DNA from: Phaeacidiphilus oryzae TH49
GTDB lineage: Bacteria; Actinomycetota; Actinomycetes; Streptomycetales; Streptomycetaceae
Assembly (NCBI RefSeq): GCF_000744815.1
Contig: NZ_JQMQ01000005.1
Span: 3,480,055-3,544,054, forward strand
Direction: 5' to 3'
DNA: 64,000 nucleotides
Under the pieces are notes generated by a model. It searched no databases, had not been told where the DNA came from, and saw nothing but the letters and a program-made list of their open reading frames with translations. This document shows positions 45,936-59,188 of the stretch, one piece after another (position 1 is the first letter of the stretch; each line of letters starts with the position of its first letter). The translations under genes and the position numbers were made by a program.

Positions 45936-45966
45936 TTTTCAACAACCTAGCGACCAAGGACCCAGC

Positions 45967-46806: not shown

Positions 46807-49800
46807 CTACTTCCGGGGCAGCCGAGCGGGGTCCGGGGCGGCAGCCCCGGCGCCCCGCCGCAGCGCGTCCCGCAGCAGCTCCGCCAGATGGCGAGGACGG
46901 CGGTCCGACAGCTGCGTGATCTGCGTGCGGCAGCTGTAGCCGTCCGCCAGGACGACCGCGTCCGGCGCGGCCGCCCGCAGCGCCGGCAGCAGCGCCTGCT
47001 CCCCCACCGCCACGGACACCTCGTAATGCCCGGCCTCGAAGCCGAAGTTGCCCGCCAGCCCGCAGCATCCGGAGTCCAGCCGCCCCGGGTCCACACCGAT
47101 CCGCGCCAGCACCCGGTCGTCCGCCCGGCTGCCCAGGGTCGCGTGCTGATGGCAGTGGGTCTGCGTCAGCGCCGTGACGTCCTCAAGACGGCCGAAGTCG
47201 ACGTCCGCCGCCTCCCGGTCCAGCAGCTCGGCCAGCGTCACCGTCTGCTCGGCCAGCCGCCGCGCCCGCGGATCGTCCGGCAGCAGCTCCGTCGCGTCGC
47301 TGCGGAAGAGCGAGGTGCAGCTCGGCTCCAGGCCGACCAGCGGCACCCCCTCCCGCAGGTAGGGGTCGACGGACCGCAGGGTCCGCGCCAGCACCCGCTT
47401 GGCGACGTCGAGTTGGCCGGTGGTGTGCCAGGTCAGCCCGCAGCACAGCCGGTCCGGCGGCAGGACCACCTCGAAGCCCGCGTACTCCAGGACCTCCACC
47501 GCCGCCCGTCCCACCTCGGGCGACATGAACTCGGTGAAGGTGTCCGGCCAGAGCAGCACCTTCCCCCGGCTGCCCGGAGCGGGCGCCGGGACCGGCGCCG
47601 TCCCCCGCCCCCGGAACCACTTCCGGAACCGCCGCTCGGCGAACGCCGGCACCGGCCGCTCGGGCGCGATCCCGCCCGCCCTCTTCAGCAGCGACACCGC
47701 CCCCGCGCTCCGCGTCACCCGGTTCACCAGCCGGGGTGCCGCCCCCGCCAGCCGGGCCCACAGCGGCAGCCAGCCCAGCGAGTAGTGCGAGGCCGGCCTC
47801 CGCCGCCCCCGGTAGTGCTGGTGGAGGAACTCCGACTTGTACGAGGCCATGTCGACCCCGACCGGGCAGTCGCTCTTGCAGCCCTTGCAGGAGAGGCAGA
47901 GGTCCAGCGCCTCGACGGCCTCCTCGGACCGCCAGCCGTCGGTGATCACCTCGCCCTGCACCATCTCGTACAGCACCCGGGCCCGCCCCCGGGTGGAGTC
48001 CTTCTCGTCCCCGGTCGCGCGGTAGCTCGGGCACATCACCCCGCCCGAGGCCGTGCGGCACTTGGCGACCCCCACGCAGCGGCGCAGCGCCTTGCTGAGG
48101 TCCCCGTCGTCCTCGGCCAGGGCCAGGGTCGTGGTCATCGGCAGCGTCGGCCGGTGACCCGGCCGGATCCGCAGCCGCTCGTCCACCGGACGCGGATGGA
48201 CCAGGATCCCCGGGTTGAGCCGATTGCCCGGGTCCCACACGGACTTGAAGGCCGCGAAGGCCTCCATCGCCTCCTCGCTGTACACCACCGGCAGGAACTC
48301 GGCCCGGGCCTGCCCGTCCCCGTGCTCCCCGGAGAGGGTGCCGCCGTGCCGGGAGACCAGCTCGGCCGCGTCCCGGATGAAGGAGCGGAAGTTCCGGACG
48401 CCTTCCTCCGTACCGTGGTCGAAGTCGATCCTGATGTGGACGCAGCCCTCGCCGAAGTGCCCGTACGGGGTGCCCTGCAACCCGTGGCCGGCCAGCAACC
48501 GCTCCAGGTCCCGCAGGTAGTCCCCCAGTCGCTCGACCGGTACGGCCGAGTCCTCCCACCCTGGCCAGGCCTCGGAACCGTCCGGGGCCCGGGTGGCCAG
48601 CCCGGAACTGTCCTCCCGGATCCGCCAGAGCGCGGCCTGCTCGGTAGGGTCCCGCACCAGCCGTACGTCGATCGCGCCGGTGCCCCGACGCAGCGCCTCG
48701 GCCAGCTCCTCGGCGCGCTTCCGCTCGGCCTCCGGGTCGGGTGCCGCGTCCTCGTGGCCGAACTCGCAGAGCAGCCAGCCGGCGCCGTCCGGCAGCAGCT
48801 CCTCGGGGCGGGCGTCCGGGACGTTCCGCCGGAGCGCGGCGACCTGGTCGCCGCCCAGCCCCTCGCAGGCGATGGGCTGATGGCGCAGTACGTGCTGGGC
48901 GGCGTCGCCGGCCGCCGGCAGATCGGAGAAGCCGAGGGCGACCAGGGTCCGCCGGGCCGGCAGCGGCACCAGCCGCACCGTCGCCGAGACCACCACCGCG
49001 CAGGTCCCCTCGGTGCCGACCAGGGCCGCGGCCAGGTCGAAGCCGCGCTCCGGCAGCAGATGTTCCAGGCTGTAGCCGGAGACCTGGCGGCGGAAGCGCC
49101 CGAACTCGGTGCGCAGCATGGCCAGATGGGCGTCCCGAAGGTCGCGAAGGGACGCGTGGATCTCGCCGGCCCGGCCGCCGCCGTCGATCACCTTCCGCAG
49201 CTCCTCGGCGTCCCGTGAGCGCAGCCGCAGCCGCTCGCCGTCGTAGGTCAGCACCTCCAGCTCGACGATGTTGTCGGCGGTCCTGCCCCAGGCCACCGAG
49301 TGGGTGCCGCAGGCGTTGTTGCCGATCATCCCGCCGATCGTGCAGCGGGCGTGGGTGGAGGGGTCCGGGCCGAACCGCAGCCCGTGCGGCTTGCAGGCCT
49401 CCTGCAGCCGGTCCAGCACCAGCCCGGGCTCGACCCGCGCGGTGCGCGCCTCGGGGTCGATCTCCAGGATCCGGTTGAGGCTGCGCGAGGTGTCGACGAC
49501 CACCCCGTCGCCGACCGCCTGCCCGGCGATGGAGGTGCCGGCCCCGCGCAGGGTGACCGCGACGCCGAGCCGGTGGCAGGCGGCCAGCGCCCCGGCCAGC
49601 TCCCCGGCGTCGGCGGGCAGTACGACGGCGCTCGGCACCTGCCGGTAGGTGGAGGCGTCCTGGGCGTACTCGGCCCGCCTGCGCCGGCCGAAGGCGACCT
49701 CGCCACGCGGCACCGCGGCCCGCAGCGCCCGCTCCAGCGCGGCCAGCGTCTCCGCGTCCGGCACGTCGGGACGCGGCGGCCCGGCCGCCCCCGCGGTCGA

Positions 49801-49827
49801 TCCGGTCGCTGCGGTCGGTGCTGACAT
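46807..49827 (-). CDS. FAD-linked oxidase with Fe-S C-terminal half (D-lactate/D-2-hydroxyglutarate dehydrogenase type)
   Basis: 1006 aa. A PCMH FAD domain (about residues 57-290; RGAGTSIAGQAVGDGVVVD) and FAD-oxidase C domain precede a ferredoxin-like region with CVGVAKC and CLSCKGCKSDCPVGVDM (about 605-660). Two CCG domains follow (LCCGLTWHTTGQ about 790, SGCCGLAGNFGFE about 922), which bind clusters in LutA/GlpC proteins. Length and order match the roughly 1000-aa YdiJ family, which oxidises D-2-hydroxyglutarate/D-lactate and feeds electrons to a membrane acceptor. The start ATG has AAGGAG about 10 nt upstream. It may be cotranscribed with the aminotransferase upstream (119-nt gap). Confidence 0.9.
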   Translation of the reverse strand: MSAPTAATGSTAGAAGPPRPDVPDAETLAALERALRAAVPRGEVAFGRRRRAEYAQDASTYRQVPSAVVLPADAGELAGALAACHRLGVAVTLRGAGTSIAGQAVGDGVVVDTSRSLNRILEIDPEARTARVEPGLVLDRLQEACKPHGLRFGPDPSTHARCTIGGMIGNNACGTHSVAWGRTADNIVELEVLTYDGERLRLRSRDAEELRKVIDGGGRAGEIHASLRDLRDAHLAMLRTEFGRFRRQVSGYSLEHLLPERGFDLAAALVGTEGTCAVVVSATVRLVPLPARRTLVALGFSDLPAAGDAAQHVLRHQPIACEGLGGDQVAALRRNVPDARPEELLPDGAGWLLCEFGHEDAAPDPEAERKRAEELAEALRRGTGAIDVRLVRDPTEQAALWRIREDSSGLATRAPDGSEAWPGWEDSAVPVERLGDYLRDLERLLAGHGLQGTPYGHFGEGCVHIRIDFDHGTEEGVRNFRSFIRDAAELVSRHGGTLSGEHGDGQARAEFLPVVYSEEAMEAFAAFKSVWDPGNRLNPGILVHPRPVDERLRIRPGHRPTLPMTTTLALAEDDGDLSKALRRCVGVAKCRTASGGVMCPSYRATGDEKDSTRGRARVLYEMVQGEVITDGWRSEEAVEALDLCLSCKGCKSDCPVGVDMASYKSEFLHQHYRGRRRPASHYSLGWLPLWARLAGAAPRLVNRVTRSAGAVSLLKRAGGIAPERPVPAFAERRFRKWFRGRGTAPVPAPAPGSRGKVLLWPDTFTEFMSPEVGRAAVEVLEYAGFEVVLPPDRLCCGLTWHTTGQLDVAKRVLARTLRSVDPYLREGVPLVGLEPSCTSLFRSDATELLPDDPRARRLAEQTVTLAELLDREAADVDFGRLEDVTALTQTHCHQHATLGSRADDRVLARIGVDPGRLDSGCCGLAGNFGFEAGHYEVSVAVGEQALLPALRAAAPDAVVLADGYSCRTQITQLSDRRPRHLAELLRDALRRGAGAAAPDPARLPRK

Positions 49828-49946: not shown

Positions 49947-51224
49947 TCAGCCGAGGACCGCGGACACCGACTCGCGCCAGAGCCGCAGACCCTCGTCGAT
50001 CTGCTCGGCGTCGACCACCAGCGGCGGGATCATCCGGACCACCTCGCCCCGCGGCCCGCAGGTCAGCAGGAGCAGCCCGCGCTCGGCGGCGGCCGCGTGC
50101 ACCTTGGCGGCGGTGGCCCCGTCCGGCTCCCCGTCGGCGGTGGTGAACTCGGTGCCGGCCATCAGGCCCAGGCCCCGGACGTCGCCGATCCCGCCGCGGC
50201 CGCCGGCCGGGTGGGCGGCGGCGACCTCGCGCAGCCCGGCGAAGAGCTGCTCGCCCCGCTCGGCGGCGTTCTCCACCAGCTTCTCCTCCTGGATCACGTC
50301 CAGGGTGGCGATGGCGGCGGCGCAGGCCACCGCGTTGCCCCCGTAGGTGCCGCCCTGCGAGCCCGGCCAGGCCTTCTCCATCAGGGCCCTGGGGGCGGCG
50401 ATCGCGGACAGCGGGAAGCCGCTGGCCAGGCCCTTCGCCGTGACCAGGATGTCCGGCCGGCCGTCGAAGTGGTCGTGGCCCCAGAACCGCCCGGTCCGCC
50501 CGAAGCCGGTCTGCACCTCGTCGAGGATCAGCAGGATGCCGTGCCGGTCGGCCCGCTCCCGCAGCCCGCGGAGGAAGGCCGAGTTGGCCGGGACGTACCC
50601 GCCCTCGCCGAGCACCGGCTCGACGATGAAGGCGGCGGTGTCCGCGGGCGCGCTGACGGTGGCCAGCAGCTCGTCCAGCTCGCGCAGCGCGAACCGGGTG
50701 GCCGCCTCCTCGTCCATCCCGTACCGGGCGTAGTGGGCGGCGTGGGGAAAGGGCGCGATCGCCACCCCCGGCATCAGCGGCCCGTACCCCGAGCGGAACT
50801 TGGTGGCCGAGGTGGTCATCGACGCGGCGGCCAGCGTGCGGCCGTGGAAGGAGCCCTGGAAGACCACGATGTTGGGGCGCGCGGTGGCCTGCTTGGCCAG
50901 CCGCATCGCGGCCTCCACGGCCTCGCTGCCGGAGTTGACGAAGAAGAGCGAGTCCAGGCCGGCCGGCAGCACCTCGCCGAGCCGCTCGCTGAGGGTCAGC
51001 AGCGGCTTGTGCATGACGGTCGTGTACTGGCCGTGCACCAGCCTGCCGACCTGCTCCTGGGCGGCCGCGACCACCTTGGGGTGGCAGTGGCCGGTCGAGG
51101 TCACCCCGATGCCGGCGGTGAAGTCGAGGTGCCGGCGCCCCGACTCCTCGTACAGGTAGACGCCTTCGCCACGTTCCGCGAGCACGGGCGTGGCCTGCTT
51201 GAGGACGGGGGAGAGTGCGCTCAT
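49947..51224 (-). CDS. Class III aminotransferase (4-aminobutyrate/omega-amino acid type)
   Basis: 425 aa PLP enzyme. NSGSEAVEAAMRLAK (about residue 105), FHGRT, LILDEVQTGFGRTG (about 220) and the PLP Lys in LVTAKGLASGFPLSA (about 262) are clear. It matches GABA/acetylornithine/omega-amino-acid aminotransferases and would yield an aldehyde from an omega-amino acid, which the divergent aldehyde dehydrogenase could oxidise. The ATG at 51224 has AGGAGC 7 nt upstream. A longer in-frame start at 51275 would reach into the promoter and is rejected. Its -35 (TTGACA) lies inside the island operator. Confidence 0.9.
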   Translation of the reverse strand: MSALSPVLKQATPVLAERGEGVYLYEESGRRHLDFTAGIGVTSTGHCHPKVVAAAQEQVGRLVHGQYTTVMHKPLLTLSERLGEVLPAGLDSLFFVNSGSEAVEAAMRLAKQATARPNIVVFQGSFHGRTLAAASMTTSATKFRSGYGPLMPGVAIAPFPHAAHYARYGMDEEAATRFALRELDELLATVSAPADTAAFIVEPVLGEGGYVPANSAFLRGLRERADRHGILLILDEVQTGFGRTGRFWGHDHFDGRPDILVTAKGLASGFPLSAIAAPRALMEKAWPGSQGGTYGGNAVACAAAIATLDVIQEEKLVENAAERGEQLFAGLREVAAAHPAGGRGGIGDVRGLGLMAGTEFTTADGEPDGATAAKVHAAAAERGLLLLTCGPRGEVVRMIPPLVVDAEQIDEGLRLWRESVSAVLG

Positions 51225-51290
51225 GGGGTCAGCTCCTGTGGAGTGGCGGTGCTCGGTTCGACCTCGGATCAACATGGGGGGTACTTCGTA

Positions 51291-51306
51291 GGATTGTCAA
51301 CAACCT
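51291..51306. promoter_or_regulatory. Island operator 1 (aminotransferase/aldehyde dehydrogenase promoter)
   Basis: TTGTCAACAA (51294-51303) followed by CCTGCA. On the minus strand it contains TTGACA as the -35 of the aminotransferase promoter. The same sequence recurs at 56289 and, with one change, at 57423. Confidence 0.7.
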
Positions 51307-51362: not shown

Positions 51363-52853
51363 TTGAGCACCGCTAGCGCAGACCAGACACAGCAGGAGCG
51401 GGAGCGGTCGGTGGTGGCGGCCGTCCCCGACGGGCTGTTCATCGGCGGCGAGTGGCGGCCGGCCGCGTCCGGTGCCGAGTTCCCCGTCGAGGACCCCTCC
51501 CTGGCCCGCACCCTGCGCACCGTCGCGGACGCCGGCGCGGAGGACGCCGAGGCCGCCGCCGAAGCGGCCGGAGCCGCGCAGGAGGCCTGGGCGGCCACCG
51601 CCCCGCGCGAGCGCGGCGAGATCCTCCGCCGCGCCTACCAGCTGCTCCTGGACCGCCAGGAGGACCTGGCCCTGCTGATGACCCTGGAGATGGGCAAGCC
51701 GCTGGCCGAGGCCCGCGGAGAGGTCGCCTACGCGGCCGAGTTCTTCCGCTGGTTCTCCGAGGAGGCGGTCCGGATCGAGGGCGGCTACCAGACCTCCCCG
51801 GACGGCAGGGACCGCTTCATCGTGATGCGCCGCCCGGTCGGCCCGGTGCTGCTGGTCACCCCGTGGAACTTCCCGCTGGCCATGGGCACCCGCAAGATCG
51901 GCCCGGCGATCGCGGCCGGCTGCACGATGATCGTCAAGCCGGCCGAGCAGACCCCGCTGACCATGCTGGCGCTGGCCGCGATCATGACCGAGGCGGGCGT
52001 CCCGGCCGGCGTCCTCAACGTCCTCACCACCAACCGGCCCGGCGAGGTGGTCGAGCCGCTGCTGCGCGGCGGGGTGATCCGCAAGCTGTCCTTCACCGGC
52101 TCCACCGCGATCGGCCGGCTGCTGCTGGAGCAGAGCGCCCAGCAGGTGCTGCGGGTCTCCCTGGAGCTGGGCGGCAACGCGCCCTTCATCGTCTGCGCCG
52201 ACGCCGACCTGGACAAGGCCGTCGAGGGCGCGATGGCCGCCAAGATGCGCAACATCGGCGAGGCCTGCACGGCCGCCAACCGGCTCTACGTCCACGAGAG
52301 CGTGGCCGCCGAGTTCGCCGAGCGGCTGGCCGCCCGGATGGGCGCGCTCACCGTCGGCCGCGGCACCGAGCCCGGCGTGGACGTCGGCCCGCTGATCGAC
52401 GAGGCCGGCCGGGGCAAGGTCGACGAGCTGGTCTCGGACGCGGTCGGGCGCGGCGCCAAGGTCCTCACCGGCGGCGAACACGCCCCGGGCGAGGGGTACT
52501 TCTACACCCCCACGGTGCTCACCGACGTCCCCGCCGACGCGGCCATGCTCAGCCAGGAGATCTTCGGCCCGGTCGCCCCGCTGCTCGCCTTCTCGGACGA
52601 CGAGGAGGCCGTGGCCGCGGCCAACGACACCGAGTACGGCCTCGTCTCCTACCTCTTCACGGAGAACCTGGACCGGGCGCTGCGGCTCTCCGAGCGCCTG
52701 GACACCGGGATGGTCGGCCTCAACAAGGGCGTGGTGTCCAACCCGGCGGCGCCCTTCGGCGGCGTCAAGCACTCCGGCCTCGGCCGGGAGGGCGGCCGGA
52801 TGGGCATCGACGAGTTCCTGGAGACCCGCTACCTCGCCGTACCGCTCGGCTGA
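51363..52853 (+). CDS. NAD(P)-dependent aldehyde dehydrogenase, succinate-semialdehyde dehydrogenase-like
   Basis: 496 aa. VTPWNFPLAM (about residue 160), FTGSTAIGRLL (about 243), the catalytic Glu in LELGGNAPFIV (about 267) and the nucleophilic Cys in GEACTAANR (about 301) are intact. It groups with GabD-type enzymes that oxidise succinate semialdehyde and similar aldehydes. Start is TTG at 51363, chosen because AGGGAGAG lies 4-5 nt upstream. No ATG or GTG gives the full N-terminus. It continues into DUF3830 after a 38-nt gap. Confidence 0.9.
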   Translation: MSTASADQTQQERERSVVAAVPDGLFIGGEWRPAASGAEFPVEDPSLARTLRTVADAGAEDAEAAAEAAGAAQEAWAATAPRERGEILRRAYQLLLDRQEDLALLMTLEMGKPLAEARGEVAYAAEFFRWFSEEAVRIEGGYQTSPDGRDRFIVMRRPVGPVLLVTPWNFPLAMGTRKIGPAIAAGCTMIVKPAEQTPLTMLALAAIMTEAGVPAGVLNVLTTNRPGEVVEPLLRGGVIRKLSFTGSTAIGRLLLEQSAQQVLRVSLELGGNAPFIVCADADLDKAVEGAMAAKMRNIGEACTAANRLYVHESVAAEFAERLAARMGALTVGRGTEPGVDVGPLIDEAGRGKVDELVSDAVGRGAKVLTGGEHAPGEGYFYTPTVLTDVPADAAMLSQEIFGPVAPLLAFSDDEEAVAAANDTEYGLVSYLFTENLDRALRLSERLDTGMVGLNKGVVSNPAAPFGGVKHSGLGREGGRMGIDEFLETRYLAVPLG

Positions 52854-52891: not shown

Positions 52892-53419
52892 ATGCCCATG
52901 GACCGTTTCATCGAGGTCTCCCTGCCCAAGCGCGGCGTGAGCTGCACCGCGAAGCTCCTCTTCGACCGGGCGCCGATCACCTGCCAGGCGATCTGGGACG
53001 CGCTGCCGCTCGGCGGCGACGTCTACCACGCCAAGTACGCGCGCAACGAGATCTACACCCTGGTACCGCCGTTCGCGCCGCAGGAACCGCCGCTGGAGAA
53101 CCCCACCATCACGCCGATCCCCGGCGACCTGTGCTACTTCACCTTCTCCGACACCCAGTTGAGCAGCTCCGCCTACGGCTACGAGGCGGCCGCCGAGCAG
53201 CAGGGCACCAGGGCCGCGCACGCCGAGCGCACCACCGTGGTCGACCTCGCGCTCTTCTACGAGCGCAACAACCTGCTGATCAACGGCGACGCCGGCTGGG
53301 TGCCCGGCATCGTCTGGGGCGCCATCACCGAAGGCCTGGACCGCATGGCCGAAGCCGCCCAGGACCTCTGGCGCGCCGGCGCCCTGGGCGAATCCCTCCA
53401 CTTCAAGCGCGCCGACTAG
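52892..53419 (+). CDS. DUF3830 family protein, cyclophilin-like fold
   Basis: 175 aa, no signal peptide or membrane segment. SLPKRGVSCTAKLLFDRAPITCQAIWDALP matches DUF3830 (shown in parts), a family related in fold to cyclophilins and often encoded with amidases and racemase-family enzymes. Function is unknown. A substrate-binding or isomerase role in the island is only inference. GGAGG lies 7 nt before the ATG. The gene is downstream of the aldehyde dehydrogenase and likely cotranscribed. Confidence 0.82.
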   Translation: MPMDRFIEVSLPKRGVSCTAKLLFDRAPITCQAIWDALPLGGDVYHAKYARNEIYTLVPPFAPQEPPLENPTITPIPGDLCYFTFSDTQLSSSAYGYEAAAEQQGTRAAHAERTTVVDLALFYERNNLLINGDAGWVPGIVWGAITEGLDRMAEAAQDLWRAGALGESLHFKRAD

Positions 53420-53598: not shown

Positions 53599-55017
53599 TC
53601 AGCCGACCGGCCCCGTCCCGACCACCCCCTCCGCGCACAGCGCGGCATGCAGCACCGCGGAAGCCCGCAGCACCAGCTCGTCCCCATGCCGGGCGGCCAC
53701 CAACTGCGCCCCCACCGGCAGCCCCCCGGCGAGGCCGGCCGGCACCGTCGCCGCCGGCTGCTGGGTGAGGTTGAACGGGTAGGTGAACGGCGTCCACCCG
53801 GTCCACCGGCGCAGCCCGCTGCCCGGCGGCACCTCGACCCCCGCCTCGAACGCCGGGATCGGGATCGTCGGCGTCAGCAGCAGGTCGTAGGTCTCGTGGA
53901 AGCGCCCCATCCACACCCCCAGCGCCATCCGCTCGTCGACCGCTCCCAGGTACTCCAGCGCGCTCTTCGCCGCGCCCTCCCGGCAGATCTCCTGCAGTCC
54001 CGGGTCCAGCCGCGCGAACTGCTCCGGGCCCAGCTGCTCGACCACCTTCGCCGCCCCCGAGAACCACAGCGTGTGGTACGCCTCCACCGGGTCGGCGAAC
54101 CCCGGGTCGGCGGTCTCCACGTCCGCGCCCAGCCGCTCCAGCAGCCCCGCGACCGCTTCCACCCGGGCAGCGACCTCCGGGTCCACCTCGGCACCCGCCA
54201 GGGTCGGCGCGTAGGCGATCCGCAGCCCCGCCAGCGAGCCCATCGCCAGCGCCTCGGCGACCGCCGCCCGGTACCCCCCGCGCGGCGACTCCAGCGCCGA
54301 CCAGTCCCGGCTGTCCGGCCCCGTCACCACGTCCATCAGCAGCGCGGCGTCCTCGACGGTCCGGGCCATCGGCCCGGCATGCGCGAGGGTGCCGAACGGC
54401 GAGGCCGGATAGAGCGGGATCCGACCGTACGTCGGCTTCATCCCGAAGATCCCGCAGAACGCCGCCGGGATCCGCACCGACCCGCCCCCGTCGGTGCCCA
54501 CCGACAGCGGCGCCATCCCGGCGGCCACCGCCGCCGCGCTGCCGCCCGAGGAGCCGCCGGACGTGGTCGACGGGTTCCAGGGGTTGCGGGTGATCCCGGT
54601 CAGCGGGTTGTCGGTGACGCCCTTCCAGCCGAACTCCGGGGTGGTGGTCTTGCCGACGAAGACCGCCCCCTGCTCCCGCATCCGCGCCACGCTCGGCGCG
54701 TCCTCCGCCCACTCGCGCTCCGCGGAGATGCTCAGCGAGCCCCGCAGGGTGGGCCGGCCCCGGGTGTACAGCAGGTCCTTGATGGAGACCGGGACGCCGT
54801 CCAGCAGCCCCGCCGGCTCCCCGCGGCTCCACCGGTCCTCGCTCCGCCGGGCCTCCTCCATCGCCGCGTCCGCCTCGACCAGGCAGTACGCGTTGAGCAC
54901 CGGGTCCGCGGCCTCGATCCGGTCCAGCACCGAGGCGGTGGCCTCGACCGGCGAGAGCTCCTTGGACTCGTACGCGGCGACCAGCTCGGTCGCCGTCATC
55001 GCATACGGCTCGGTCAT
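53599..55017 (-). CDS. Amidase (amidase signature family)
   Basis: 472 aa. The catalytic Ser-cisSer-Lys triad is clear: GVPVSIKDLLYTRG (Lys about residue 78) and TSGGSSGGSAAAVAAGMAPLSVGTDGGGSVRIPAAFCG (shown in parts, about 150-190). It hydrolyses an amide or imide to an acid plus ammonia or amine, substrate unknown. The ATG overlaps the stop of the 2-hydroxyacid dehydrogenase gene by 4 nt (ATGA), so the two enzymes are coupled. Confidence 0.92.
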   Translation of the reverse strand: MTEPYAMTATELVAAYESKELSPVEATASVLDRIEAADPVLNAYCLVEADAAMEEARRSEDRWSRGEPAGLLDGVPVSIKDLLYTRGRPTLRGSLSISAEREWAEDAPSVARMREQGAVFVGKTTTPEFGWKGVTDNPLTGITRNPWNPSTTSGGSSGGSAAAVAAGMAPLSVGTDGGGSVRIPAAFCGIFGMKPTYGRIPLYPASPFGTLAHAGPMARTVEDAALLMDVVTGPDSRDWSALESPRGGYRAAVAEALAMGSLAGLRIAYAPTLAGAEVDPEVAARVEAVAGLLERLGADVETADPGFADPVEAYHTLWFSGAAKVVEQLGPEQFARLDPGLQEICREGAAKSALEYLGAVDERMALGVWMGRFHETYDLLLTPTIPIPAFEAGVEVPPGSGLRRWTGWTPFTYPFNLTQQPAATVPAGLAGGLPVGAQLVAARHGDELVLRASAVLHAALCAEGVVGTGPVG

Positions 55018-56066
55018 CGGTTCCCCTCCTCGTCCGGGGCCGGCGCGCCGGCCGCGACCGGTACGTAGCCCAGCTTCTTGTCCACGACGTTGCGCAGCGG
55101 CCGGCCGGCCCGCCAGCGGGCGAGGTTGTCCGCGAAGACCTCGGCGAGGTCCTCCAGCCAGCTGTCGGTGTCGGCCGACATGTGCGGCGAGACCAGCAGG
55201 TTCGGCGCCGTCCAGAGCGGGCTGCCGGCGTCCAGCGGCTCCTCGCGGAAGACGTCCAGCGCGGCCCCGCCGAGCCGCCCGTCCGCCAGCGCCGCCAGCA
55301 GGTCCTCCTCGACGACCAGCGGGCCGCGGCCGACGTTCAGGAACCGCGCCCCGCGCTTCATCCGGGAGAACGCCGCCGCGTCGAACATCGAGTCGGTCTC
55401 CGCGGTCAGCGGAGCGGCGCAGACCACCCAGTCCGCCTGCCCCAACAGGCCTTCGTCAGACACGAGTTCGTCGAATCCGTGCACCAGGCCGAGCTCCGGG
55501 TCGTCCTCCCGGCGGGTCCGACCCACCAGGTCCGCCCGCAGCCCGAGCGCCCGCAGCGTCCGCAGTACGGCCCGTCCGATCGGCCCGCCGCCGACGACCA
55601 CCGCCCGCGTCCCCGCGACCCGGCCGGTGACCCGGTGCTCCCAGATTCGGTTCCGCTGCCGCTCGTAGGTCCCGGCGAAGTCCTTGGCCAGGGCGATCAC
55701 CCAGCCGGCCACGTACTCCGCGATGGGCTGCTCGAAGACCCCGCGGGAGTTGGTGACCAGCACGTCGGACTCGGTCAGCGCCGGGAACATCAGCCGGTCC
55801 ACCCCGGCGCTCGCGGTGTGCACCCAGCGCGGGCCGCCCTCCTCGGGCCAGGCGGCGGGCAGCGCCTCGGTGCCGAACTCCCAGACCAGCAGCACGTCGG
55901 CGGCCGGGAGCTCGGCGGCGAGCCGCTCCTCGGGGATGCAGACCAGCTCGGCCTCGGCGGCCACCCCGGCCAGCTCCGGCGGCGGTTCGCCGGCGAGTAC
56001 CAGCACCCGCGGGGCCCGGGGCTCGCGCGGAGGGCTGGACGCACGGAGGGATTCGCTCTTCGTCAC
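55014..56066 (-). CDS. D-isomer specific 2-hydroxyacid dehydrogenase
   Basis: 350 aa NAD enzyme of the phosphoglycerate-dehydrogenase/formate-like family. The Rossmann motif VVVGGGPIGRAVLRTLRALG (about residue 160) is followed by NVGRGPLVVEEDLLAAL (about 255) and SPHMSADT with the catalytic His (about 300). It would interconvert a 2-oxo and a 2-hydroxy acid. GTG at 56066 is chosen for AAGGA 5 nt upstream. A longer frame to 56267 crosses the promoter. First gene of the unit that also holds the amidase. Confidence 0.88.
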   Translation of the reverse strand: MTKSESLRASSPPREPRAPRVLVLAGEPPPELAGVAAEAELVCIPEERLAAELPAADVLLVWEFGTEALPAAWPEEGGPRWVHTASAGVDRLMFPALTESDVLVTNSRGVFEQPIAEYVAGWVIALAKDFAGTYERQRNRIWEHRVTGRVAGTRAVVVGGGPIGRAVLRTLRALGLRADLVGRTRREDDPELGLVHGFDELVSDEGLLGQADWVVCAAPLTAETDSMFDAAAFSRMKRGARFLNVGRGPLVVEEDLLAALADGRLGGAALDVFREEPLDAGSPLWTAPNLLVSPHMSADTDSWLEDLAEVFADNLARWRAGRPLRNVVDKKLGYVPVAAGAPAPDEEGNR

Positions 56067-56261
56067 GACGGTCCTTCGGATCGCTCGGCGATTCGCCGAC
56101 AGGAGGTGAGAGGCGGGCGGTGCGAGGTAAGAGGCAACCGGCAGGCAACCGGCGGGCAACACGTGCGGTGCAGACTGGGAGGACAGGCGGCACGACGCTT
56201 CCGGCGGCCGCCTCCCACCAGCCGGTTCACCCGCGTCGACGGGTCGTTGCCGGCAGGGGAT

Positions 56262-56305
56262 TGACACGCTAAGCAGCAGATCTTTACGTTGTCAACAATC
56301 TACAC
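56262..56305. promoter_or_regulatory. Divergent promoter and island operator 2
   Basis: Plus strand: TTGACA (56262-56267), 17 nt, TACGTT (56285-56290). Minus strand: TTGACA (56295-56290) and TAGCGT (56272-56267). Both overlap the operator TTGTCAACAA (56289-56298), so binding there should block or alter both directions. Confidence 0.65.
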
Positions 56306-56435: not shown

Positions 56436-57380
56436 TTGGACATCACCACCTTCGGCGGCCCGGTACCGCAGCGCGGCATCGGCGTCGTCGCCCCGTTCGA
56501 CTTCGCACTCGACCGGGAGCTCTGGCGGTGGACGCCAGAGGAGGTCTCCCTCCACCTCACCCGCACCCCCTACGTGCCCGTCGAGGTGAGCGTCGACATG
56601 GCCCGCCTGATCAGTGAGCACGAGACACTGCAGTCCGCGGTCACCGCCCTGGACGCGGTCCGGCCCGTGTCCTTCGCCTACGCCTGCACCTCGGGCAGCT
56701 TCGTCGGGGGCATCCCGCACGAGCGCGCGATGTGCTCCTCGATGAGCCGGGCCGGCCGGGACATGCCGGCCGTCACCACCTCCGGCGCCCTGCTGGAGGC
56801 GCTGCTCGAACTGGGGGCCCGCCGGGTGAGCGTGATCACCCCCTACACCGCCTCGCTCACCGACGCGCTGGCGGACTTCCTCGCCGAGGCCGGCGTGGAG
56901 GTGGTCAGCCGCCAGTACATGGGGCTGACCGGGGAGATCTGGAAGGTCGGCTACCGCAACGTGGTGGACCTGGCCCGCACCGCGGACCTGTCCGAGGCCG
57001 ACTGCCTCTTCATCAGCTGCACCAACCTCGCCACCTACGACGTGATCCCGCAGCTGGAGGCCGAGCTGCGGATCCCGGTGATCTCGGCCAACCAGGTCAC
57101 CATGTGGGCCGCGCTGCGGCACATCGGCCTGCGGGCCACCGGCGACTACCAGTCGCTGATCGACCAGGCGGCCCGCGAGGCCCTCGGCCCGTACCTCCGC
57201 AACAGGTCCCTGCCGCTGCCGCCCGCCGAGCCCCTGCCCTCGGCCGAGCCGCTGCCGCCCGCCGAGCCGCTGCCCGCCACCGGCCCGGCGCCGTGCGAGC
57301 CAACCCTTCCGGACCCCCCTCCGGCCGGCCAGCCGGAGGATCCGGGTCCGGCATCGGAACCCAACTGGCCCGAGCACTAA
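56436..57380 (+). CDS. Asp/Glu racemase superfamily, maleate cis-trans isomerase-like enzyme 1
   Basis: 314 aa from TTG 56436 (SD GAAGGGG, 7 nt upstream). The earlier frame begins inside the operator and is unlikely. Two catalytic Cys motifs are present: YACTSGSFVGG (about residue 88) and FISCTNLATYD (about 195). Both Cys of maleate isomerase/Asp racemase type are retained. ISANQVTMWAALRHIGL closes the domain. A Pro-rich tail (PLPPAEPLPS repeats, about 250-314) is unusual. A maleate-, racemate- or malonate-like substrate is possible. Confidence 0.82.
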   Translation: MDITTFGGPVPQRGIGVVAPFDFALDRELWRWTPEEVSLHLTRTPYVPVEVSVDMARLISEHETLQSAVTALDAVRPVSFAYACTSGSFVGGIPHERAMCSSMSRAGRDMPAVTTSGALLEALLELGARRVSVITPYTASLTDALADFLAEAGVEVVSRQYMGLTGEIWKVGYRNVVDLARTADLSEADCLFISCTNLATYDVIPQLEAELRIPVISANQVTMWAALRHIGLRATGDYQSLIDQAAREALGPYLRNRSLPLPPAEPLPSAEPLPPAEPLPATGPAPCEPTLPDPPPAGQPEDPGPASEPNWPEH

Positions 57381-57421
57381 GCCGGTTGACCAGCGCCCAG
57401 GGGGTTCCCCGGGCGCCTTCC

Positions 57422-57463
57422 GATGTCAACAATCTGCACTTGCCGGGCTTTCGCCGCTAGAAT
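57422..57463. promoter_or_regulatory. Island operator 3 and promoter of the second isomerase-like gene
   Basis: ATGTCAACAATCTGCAC (57423-57439) matches sites 1 and 2 apart from one base. TAGAAT (57458-57463) is a good -10 25 nt before the ATG, and the operator reaches into the -35 position. Confidence 0.65.
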
Positions 57464-57487
57464 GCCCGCACGAAAGGACCACTCAGC

Positions 57488-58258
57488 ATGAGCGACATGG
57501 CGGCCCGCGTCGGCTTCCTCTACCCCGGCCACTCCGCCGAGGACGACTACCCCCGGCTGGAGGCCATGATCGGCGGCGGGGTGCGGCTGACCCTCGTCCA
57601 CACCGACATCGGCACCGACGCCCACCGGCCCGACGAGCTGCTCGAGATGGGCGCCACCCACCGTCTCAAGGCCGCCCTCGGCGAGCTTCTCCGGCAGCCG
57701 CAGGACGCCGTCGTCTGGGCCTGCACCAGCGCCAGCTTCATCTACGGCCCGGAGGGCGCCCGCCGCCAGGTCGAGGAGCTGGCCGAGGCCGCCGGGCTGC
57801 CCGTCGAGCGGGTCTCCTCCACCTCCTTCGCCTTCACCGGCGCCGTCCGGGCGCTCGGCGTACGGCGGCTGGCGATCGCCGCCACCTACCCCGAGGACGT
57901 GGCCGGCTACTTCGTCCGCTTCCTGGAGGCGGCCGGCTCCCAGGTGGTCCAGGTCTCCGGGCGCGGGATCATCACCGCCGCCGAGGTCGGCACCCTGGGC
58001 CGCGACGAGGTGCTGGAGCTGGCCCGGTCCAACGACCACCCGGACGCCGAGGCGATCCTCCTCCCGGACACCGCGCTGCACAGCGCGGCCTGGCTGGACG
58101 AGCTGGAGGAGGCCGTCGGCAAGCCGGTGCTGACCGCCAACCAGGTCACCGCCTGGGAGGGCCTGCGGCTTGCCGGGGACGCCGCCCCGCGCCCCGGCCT
58201 CGGCTCGCTCTTCCGGCGCTCCCGAACCCCCGATCACCCCACCCATGCGGCCGTGTGA
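57488..58258 (+). CDS. Asp/Glu racemase superfamily, maleate isomerase-like enzyme 2 (second Cys missing)
   Basis: 256 aa. It keeps the first catalytic-Cys motif (WACTSASFIYG, about residue 78) but has ILLPDTALHS where the paralogue has FISCTNLAT, so Asp replaces the second Cys. Its C-terminal LTANQVTAWEGLRLAG matches the family. The upstream gene shares the fold. One-Cys members of the superfamily can be decarboxylases (arylmalonate decarboxylase), so the activity may have changed. AAAGGA precedes the ATG. Confidence 0.82.
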   Translation: MSDMAARVGFLYPGHSAEDDYPRLEAMIGGGVRLTLVHTDIGTDAHRPDELLEMGATHRLKAALGELLRQPQDAVVWACTSASFIYGPEGARRQVEELAEAAGLPVERVSSTSFAFTGAVRALGVRRLAIAATYPEDVAGYFVRFLEAAGSQVVQVSGRGIITAAEVGTLGRDEVLELARSNDHPDAEAILLPDTALHSAAWLDELEEAVGKPVLTANQVTAWEGLRLAGDAAPRPGLGSLFRRSRTPDHPTHAAV

Positions 58259-58294: not shown

Positions 58295-58996
58295 ATGGCC
58301 ACTGCGAAAGCCCTGCGACCGGTCAAGCGGGAACCCGCGTCGACCATCATCGCCGCCCAGCTCACCGAAGCGATCATGGACGGCACCCTCGCCCCCGGCA
58401 CCCAGCTGGGCGAGGCCGAGCTGGCCGGCCAGCTCGGCGTCAGCCGCGGCCCGCTCCGCGAGGCCCTGCAGCGCCTGGTGCAGCAGGGCATCGCGGTCAG
58501 CGCCCCGCACCGCGGCGTCTTCGTGACGACGCTGGACGAGGACGACGTCCGGGACATCTACCTCGCCCGCACCGCCATGGAGTCCGCCGCCTGCCGGCTG
58601 GTGCTCCAGCGGGACCCGCAGCGGACGGCGGACCGGCTGGCCAAGGTGCACCGCACCATGGCGGCGGCGGCCCGCCGCGGCAACCTCACCGCGATCGGCA
58701 CCGCGGACACCGAGTTCCACCAGGTCCTGGTCGAGGAGTCGGGCAGCCCCCGGCTCCGGCGGATCTGCGAGACCCTCTTCGTCGAGACCAGGATGTGCCT
58801 TTCCGCACTCACCGGCGAGCACCCCGACCCGGACGCCCTGGTGGAGGAGCACGCGGCGCTCATCGAGGCGCTGCGCGAGGAGGACGAGCCGCGCCTCCTC
58901 GCCCTGATCGAGGAGCACATGCAGGACGCCGTGCGCCGCCTCACACCCCCGTCGCTTGACGAGATCGCGGAGACCCCGGCCGCCGCCGGCGGCTGA
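58295..58996 (+). CDS. GntR/FCD family transcriptional regulator of the island
   Basis: 233 aa. The winged helix (about residues 15-80; LAGQLGVSRGPLREALQRLVQQGI) and FCD domain (about 90-220; FHQVLVEESGS, EEHAALIEAL) are typical of the FadR/VanR group, which bind TNGTNNNACNA-like sites. TTGTCAACAA in three island promoters fits that shape. Only a 36-nt gap follows the second isomerase, so it is cotranscribed from site 3 and probably feedback-regulated. The ligand is probably a pathway acid. Confidence 0.9.
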   Translation: MATAKALRPVKREPASTIIAAQLTEAIMDGTLAPGTQLGEAELAGQLGVSRGPLREALQRLVQQGIAVSAPHRGVFVTTLDEDDVRDIYLARTAMESAACRLVLQRDPQRTADRLAKVHRTMAAAARRGNLTAIGTADTEFHQVLVEESGSPRLRRICETLFVETRMCLSALTGEHPDPDALVEEHAALIEALREEDEPRLLALIEEHMQDAVRRLTPPSLDEIAETPAAAGG

Positions 58997-59096: not shown

Positions 59097-59104
59097 CCAC
59101 TGTG

Positions 59105-59188
59105 TGCGCGAGGGGGGAGTTGAACCCCCACGCCCTTTCGGGCACTGGAACCTGAATCCAGCGCGTCTGCCTATTCCGCCACCCGCGC
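59105..59188 (-). tRNA. tRNA-Leu (anticodon CAG)
   Basis: 84 nt on the minus strand. Acceptor GCGCGGG pairs with CTCGCGC (one G-U). The D-arm holds GGCGGAATAGGCAGACGC. The anticodon stem CTGGA/TCCAG encloses TTCAGGT, giving anticodon CAG. A long class II variable arm (GTGCCCGAAAGGGCGT) and the T-arm GGGGGTTCAACTCCCCC follow. The CCA tail is not encoded. Confidence 0.95.

Follow-up and report, generated by a model that had tools for sequence, protein, structure and literature searches.

We analysed a window of 64,000 nucleotides (the whole stretch; all coordinates are positions in it) from Phaeacidiphilus oryzae TH49, contig NZ_JQMQ01000005.1, and describe two adjacent genes, here called P1 and P2, together with the conserved gene module around them, whose context points to ectoine or 5-hydroxyectoine as the substrate. 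Both genes encode proteins of the racemase fold shared by arylmalonate decarboxylase (AMDase) and the ectoine-utilization protein EutA:

56436 to 57380, plus strand: P1, a two-cysteine (C84, C195) AMDase/EutA-like racemase-fold protein with a low-confidence extra C-terminal tail beyond about residue 250.
57488 to 58258, plus strand: P2, a paralogue of P1 that retains C79 and in which D194 replaces the second catalytic cysteine, within the motif LPDTALHS.

A preliminary description of these genes had reported both cysteine motifs in P1, and only the first, followed by PDTALHS, in P2; both open reading frames and these motifs were found as reported. P1 carries cysteine at both catalytic positions, C84 and C195 (YACTSGSF and SCTNLAT), which is the pattern of the two-cysteine superfamily. 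P2 departs from that pattern, with C79 and D194 at the two positions (WACTSASF and LLPDTALHS). In HMMER alignments, Pro193-Asp194 of P2 falls on Ser-Cys188 of AMDase and C79 falls on AMDase position 74. Because C79 is the only cysteine in the whole of P2, no other cysteine could fill the second catalytic position, and none aligns there. It had also been remarked that AMDase loses the opposite cysteine, and this agrees with the published account, in which the enzyme has Gly74 and keeps Cys188 (PMC4996985). Two-cysteine homologues with the same substitution would have told against the loss being meaningful; the four EutA sequences compared all retain both cysteines, the mechanism of EutA itself being unproven.

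The Pfam Amdase family (PF17645) matches P1 at 96.3 bits and P2 at 86.5 bits, against a cut-off of 25.9. The P2 model (mean pLDDT 88) superposes on maleate isomerase 2xed with a VIA Z of 31.2 (root-mean-square deviation 2.1 over 239 residues) and on AMDase 3dg9 with a VIA Z of 31.1 (2.0 over 228 residues), and the P1 model (mean pLDDT 77) gives 28.3 with AMDase 3ixl (2.3 over 224 residues) and about 28 with 2xed. The EutA equivalog model TIGR02990 is the top-scoring NCBIfam model for both proteins, at 109.9 bits for P1 and 113.3 bits for P2, far below its cut-off of 318. The AMDase equivalog model NF052327 (cut-off 225 bits) is likewise not reached (P1 89.5, P2 80.1), and the combination of Gly74 and Cys188 that AMDase is stated to require (search criterion 10, PMC4996985) is absent from P1, which has Cys/Cys, and from P2, which has Cys/Asp. 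In a tree built by a quick method, with SH-aLRT support only and long branches among the outside rows, P1, P2 and EutA form three separate groups. By the tests applied, neither protein belongs to EutA or to AMDase, although either may work like EutA. Since P1 and P2 form separate clades, they are not recent duplicates, and a recent tandem duplication as their origin was ruled out. The same genome holds a further P1 paralogue at about 1.41 Mb (L007, 1345 to 2223), with serine at the second position (GSANLPS), an altered first motif (ACPTGSC) and a long branch, which looks like a decayed or repurposed copy.

Aspartate at the second position of P2 is a trait of its clade, and neither chance nor a sequencing event, because it recurs in 21 of 24 orthologues and in all 18 genomes that also carry P1. 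These counts come from a sample of 396 Actinomycetota genomes, 34 of which match P2 with an E value no higher than 1e-10; in 24 of these, the window included, the match is orthologue-like, at about 200 bits or more. P1 orthologues were searched for with a single query at E 1e-20. The remaining three orthologues have glycine there, all of them in genomes without a P1 orthologue. At the first position, cysteine is found in 15 orthologues and serine in nine. In the P1-carrying genomes the motif PDTAxH accompanies the aspartate throughout (18/18) and the first cysteine is kept in 14, while P2 of four loci in family f18 (L056, L058, L060 and L064) has serine at the first position, leaving cysteine at neither catalytic position. 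Among Streptomycetaceae, PDTALH[ST] and the first cysteine are both present in 80 of 80 named loci; these are the best 80 of at least 581 P2 relatives in a scan of genome contigs, all from that family, and thus do not constitute a broad sample. Additionally, a plasmid protein of Nitratireductor thuwali (L185, 6974 to 7747) has the PDTA motif and stands beside P2 in the tree, which suggests that the aspartate variant extends beyond actinobacteria.

The residues around the substitution speak for a functional, changed active site in P2. Across the 16 aligned sequences of the 18 P2s found with P1, E18, D19, H46, T80, S81, D194, T195 and H198 are invariant; judged by conservation and homology, they form a polar set in a cleft whose counterpart in AMDase is partly hydrophobic (PMC4996985, Table 4). 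An invariant polar set of this kind favours a working altered site over decay, and a divergent function for P2, one of two possibilities raised in the preliminary description, is likely. The other, an obligate heteromer of P1 and P2, is unlikely as a general rule. Of the 19 sampled genomes with a P1 orthologue, 18 also have P2, but six of the 24 P2 genomes lack a P1 orthologue, and with the two proteins in separate clades P2 does not depend on P1 everywhere.

P2 could still be a catalytically dead partner that stabilizes or regulates P1, the pair acting as a heteromer. We consider this unlikely. The near-constant company of P1 with P2, the closeness of their genes (about 1 kb or less apart in 17 of the 18 loci), and the four f18 proteins lacking both cysteines would fit such a partnership; however, the strict polar invariants exceed the needs of a scaffold, and six genomes keep P2 alone. 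These six are Streptomycetaceae (L042, L043, L062, L066, L067 and L069), with the transporter genes EhuBCDA adjoining P2 in all and the dehydrogenase of the module in four, and we read their loci as a reduced form of the module locus. The motif is often lost there: aspartate remains in three of the six and has become glycine in three, and the first cysteine, kept in one, has become serine in five. These P2-only Streptomyces copies look relaxed.

Around P1 and P2 lie genes that recur with them:

49947 to 51275, minus strand: class III aminotransferase (PF00202), 31% identical to the Atf-position enzyme of a Rhizobium eut cluster.
51363 to 52853, plus strand: aldehyde dehydrogenase of succinate-semialdehyde-dehydrogenase type, TTG start, 65% identical to its counterpart in locus L057, which matches PF00171.
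52892 to 53419, plus strand: DUF3830 protein (PF12903, 204 bits, scanned from 52922 without the first ten residues; the start codon is taken from the sequence); 17 of the 18 module loci have it.
53599 to 55017, minus strand: amidase-signature hydrolase (PF01425; PRK06169, 725 bits), whose gene shares 4 bases with that of the dehydrogenase; present in all 18 module loci.
55014 to 56117, minus strand: D-2-hydroxyacid dehydrogenase-like protein (PF02826 and PF00389), start codon approximate, with the reading frame open to 56267, in 16 of 18 module loci.
58295 to 58996, plus strand: GntR/FCD-family transcriptional regulator (PF00392 and PF07729), the probable regulator of the module, close by in 14 of 18 loci.

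The 18 loci with both P1 and P2 were read as stretches of 11 to 20 kb (4 to 21 kb over all loci), with neighbours annotated in part, so that absence here means absence nearby. The aminotransferase and the aldehyde dehydrogenase are each present in eight of the 18. The order DUF3830, amidase and dehydrogenase on the opposite strand, P1, P2 is exact in 68 of the 80 best-match Streptomycetaceae loci. The closest solved relative of the amidase is aryl acylamidase 4yj6, and the aldehyde dehydrogenase of the window is 47% identical to the Ssd-position enzyme of the Rhizobium eut cluster.

Further genes were noted at these loci. An FAD/FeS dehydrogenase resembling D-2-hydroxyglutarate dehydrogenase (46807 to 49827) adjoins the aminotransferase, has a 45% homologue beside the module in L041, and may belong to the module. 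The four f18 loci have a Glu/Leu-type amino-acid dehydrogenase gene and no aminotransferase match nearby. A tRNA-Leu (CAG) gene at 59104 to 59188 on the minus strand lies immediately downstream of the regulator gene. In Streptomyces, a luciferase-like neighbour had raised pyrimidine or hydantoin degradation; this was dropped, as the neighbour is an MsnO8-type oxidoreductase with an M6-type protease gene nearby, and both probably reflect chromosomal synteny.

The established enzymes of ectoine breakdown are missing from this setting. No eutB, eutC, eutD or eutE lies beside P1 and P2 in the window. None of the 24 P2 genomes reaches the EutD cut-off of 613 bits, the top score being 416 in G008, or the EutE cut-off of 402.7 bits, where the top score is 108, and in the 80 named loci a EutD match above 100 bits occurs once, and EutE, EutB and EutC not at all. 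Ectoine synthase is encoded in 19 of the 24 P2 genomes, including that of the window and, within the window's own family, each of the 11 P2 genomes sampled.

Genes for the Ehu transporter are associated with the module. EhuB exceeds the TIGR02995 cut-off in 31 of the 396 genomes; 16 of these are among the 24 P2 genomes and 15 among the remaining 372. Eleven of the 16 have EhuB less than 5 kb from P2; the distance is about 10 kb in G226 and 22 kb in another genome, and in the last three EhuB lies elsewhere. In Streptomyces, the EhuB gene adjoins that of DUF3830 in divergent orientation, with EhuC, EhuD and EhuA behind it, and EhuB of L053, at 269.7 bits, clears the TIGR02995 cut-off of 190.9. 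This arrangement is regular: EhuB is present in 64 of the 80 named loci, with DUF3830 in 62 of those 64, divergent in 61 and with the matches no more than 692 bases apart in 59, and at least six of the 16 loci without EhuB are short and cut by contig ends. Additionally, G205, which has P1 without P2, has a contig of 6.9 kb on which EhuB lies 0.3 kb from that P1. Other lineages of the module have genes for BCCT or ProP-like carriers.

The nearest solved protein to EhuB of L053 is the ectoine-binding EhuB of S. meliloti (2q88), at 192 bits, the next scoring 78. At what we take to be the equivalents of its binding residues, presumably Glu21, Phe24, Tyr60, Phe80 and Arg85, the L053 protein reads E, F, F, Y and R. 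Among 18 Ehu loci without the module nearby, EutD, EutB or EutC adjoins in eight, all from family f16 (8 of 12 there). The only sampled f16 genome with the module, G226, has an EhuB (L203) that branches within the clade of the EutD-linked EhuB proteins, at 100/100 support, and its nearest rows are two loci with neither eut genes nor the module, in a tree with long branches. This placement indicates that one transporter lineage has been joined either to the known ectoine enzymes or to the module. In Sinorhizobium sp. CCBAU 05631, the neighbours of a P1-like gene (38%) include ehuD, ehuA, ehuB and a gene whose annotation is diaminobutyrate transaminase, and the 16.6 kb of this locus contain no match to EutD.

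The module genes also share a conserved operator. Three operator-like sites lie between its genes in the window:

51294 to 51306, plus strand: operator-like site between the aminotransferase and aldehyde dehydrogenase genes.
56289 to 56301, plus strand: operator-like site between the dehydrogenase gene and P1.
57423 to 57435, plus strand: operator-like site in front of P2.

The pattern TTGTCAACAATCT, at up to two mismatches, occurs four times in the window against 0.03 expected; a weaker copy with two mismatches stands at 45936 to 45948, at the start of an azoreductase-like gene. Within the 7.8-Mb genome, TGTCAACAAYCTRCA at up to one mismatch is found at the three module sites only, and the reversed control pattern not at all; as the pattern was built from those three sites, only the lack of further ones is informative. 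Across the 14 module loci that bear the GntR gene (242,710 bases), the palindrome ATTGTNNACAAT has 25 copies, in 12 of the 14, and is absent from each of 20 dinucleotide shuffles. It is also absent from 28 control loci, made up of four Streptomyces module loci without GntR, six that keep P2 alone and 18 with Ehu and no module nearby, where the shorter TTGTNNACAA occurs once. The locus of the window has the shorter form only, twice, and L056 has neither ATTGTNNACAAT nor TTGTNNACAA. Judged by tblastn matches, nearly all sites are intergenic. In L041 they are found in front of the MFS gene in the ProP-like cluster, of P1 and of EhuB, and also in the interval separating GntR from P2; in L060 and L064, where start codons are not fixed, they lie between the BCCT gene and the amino-acid dehydrogenase gene. 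A site stands beside the Glu/Leu-type dehydrogenase gene in L058, L060 and L064.

Taken together, these data lead us to favour, as a reasonably probable account, an actinobacterial module that degrades ectoine and/or 5-hydroxyectoine without EutD, EutE, EutB or EutC, in which P1 and P2 are two EutA-like enzymes and P2 is the variant with aspartate for cysteine. The substrate class is suggested by the transport genes beside the module, and we regard (hydroxy)ectoine as likely. In the known route, EutD opens the ring, EutE deacetylates, and Atf and Ssd yield aspartate; EutA, EutB and EutC are required for 5-hydroxyectoine and have been proposed as epimerase, dehydratase and reductase, their precise activities being described as unknown (PMC5924519, PMC8739950). 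A review figure legend also places an uncharacterized hydroxyacid dehydrogenase in some ectoine clusters (PMC5924519), and in G008 a homologue (44%) of the module dehydrogenase adjoins a EutD-like gene (L152).

What the computation establishes is the association, namely the conserved module, its recurrent placement with EhuBCDA or, in other lineages, BCCT or ProP-like carrier genes, the common operator and the exchange of cysteine for aspartate in P2. Our assignment of individual steps is made with low confidence. Import would be by Ehu or another solute carrier. DUF3830 is, by exclusion, a candidate for the ring opener, the amidase would stand in EutE's place for N-deacetylation, and the aminotransferase and aldehyde dehydrogenase would stand in the places of Atf and Ssd. 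P1, with its two cysteines, may be a cofactor-free epimerase or isomerase, as proposed for EutA. Asp194 of P2 would probably serve as acid or base on the same or the next intermediate, for example in elimination of the 5-hydroxyl, with P2 in EutB's place, and the 2-hydroxyacid-dehydrogenase-like enzyme may then reduce the P2 product next to the carboxylate, in EutC's place. More broadly, it is possible, if doubtful, that P2 typifies a racemase-fold clade in which an Asp/His site has replaced the two thiols and carries out elimination or ring hydrolysis within a complete pathway independent of EutD and EutE, including in organisms that synthesize ectoine.

Several observations weigh against the ectoine module as we read it. 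The shortfall of P1 and P2 from the EutA cut-off is one. The genome of the window has no EhuB over the cut-off. EhuB is also missing from ten named loci, out of the 80, that show no obvious truncation, among them the full-length L072, the closest relative of the window. BCCT, found in three of the four f18 loci, is a broad solute-carrier family. Ehu alone is no proof of catabolism, because eut genes, like the module, are missing from the vicinity in ten of the 18 module-free Ehu loci; four of these ten belong to P2 genomes in which Ehu is placed apart from the module. The three operators of the window have no obvious transporter under them, and none of the four Streptomyces module loci examined has an operator. 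G008 has a EutD-like gene (416 bits, below the cut-off) elsewhere in addition to the module, and a neighbouring gene in L058 weakly resembles EutD (28%). Five P2 genomes, four from f18 together with G008, lack ectoine synthase. The P2-only Streptomyces loci retain Ehu and mostly the dehydrogenase without P1, the amidase or DUF3830, for which the pathway gives no explanation, and since D194 is glycine in three of these six, catalysis through it is not general there. Finally, the Nitratireductor protein sits among genes unlike ectoine genes.

Some of these points would suit a module for the breakdown of some other zwitterionic solute, taken up through Ehu-, BCCT- or ProP-like carriers: transporter types differ between lineages, EhuB is missing from the genome of the window, and ectoine synthase from five of the 24 P2 genomes. 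We nevertheless find this quite improbable, given that EhuB scores above a curated cut-off and belongs to the lineage linked to eutD in relatives, and that the aminotransferase and aldehyde dehydrogenase fit the last two steps of ectoine breakdown. That P1 and P2 are AMDase- or maleate-isomerase-type enzymes acting on malonates or maleate is highly improbable in spite of the shared fold and Pfam family, for P1 has two cysteines and P2 the wrong one without Cys188, both score far below the AMDase cut-off, and no nicotinate- or malonate-degradation genes are among the recurrent neighbours, as far as these are annotated. Malonate or maleate chemistry thus has no support, and on the strength of gene context ectoine and hydroxyectoine take the place of the preliminary suggestions, which were decarboxylation and substrates such as maleate, malonates or hydantoins.

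According to a 2026 study (PMC13188858), no ectoine catabolism had been described for Gram-positive bacteria; the study uses homologues of EutD and EutB to predict it in them. Because the module lacks EutD and EutE, searches of that kind would have overlooked it, and in the mostly open-access literature we found nothing on DUF3830 and no paper describing the module. It is probably an unrecognized (hydroxy)ectoine pathway of actinobacteria. The P1/P2 pair would offer a direct test of EutA-like enzyme action with a natural contrast of aspartate for cysteine, and the conserved operator would be a ready reporter for finding the inducer.

Among known enzymes, AMDase (EC 4.1.1.76) resembles both proteins in fold (VIA Z 31 for P2, 28 for P1) and differs in having only C188, with Gly74, whereas P2 has only the first cysteine and P1 has both. 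Maleate cis-trans isomerase (2xed, 4fq7) is similarly close in fold (Z 31 and 28) and shares both cysteines with P1, but identity is 20 to 25% over the aligned part. EutA (TIGR02990) has in common with P1 and P2 the fold family and the occurrence of its relatives with ehu transporter genes, and with P1 both cysteine positions; however, a Rhizobium EutA scores 421 bits on TIGR02990 compared with 110 and 113 for P1 and P2, whose clades stand apart, and P2 has aspartate for the second cysteine. At the level of the whole locus, the canonical ehuABCD-eutABCDE-ssd-atf cluster of S. meliloti, R. pomeroyi and Rhizobium anhuiense is matched by EhuBCDA in many module loci, EutA-like proteins, an aldehyde dehydrogenase, a class III aminotransferase in some loci and a regulator of the GntR superfamily. 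Where that cluster has EutD, EutE, EutB, EutC and the MocR-type regulator EnuR, the module instead has an amidase, DUF3830, a D-2-hydroxyacid dehydrogenase, a second EutA-like protein and an FCD-type GntR regulator.

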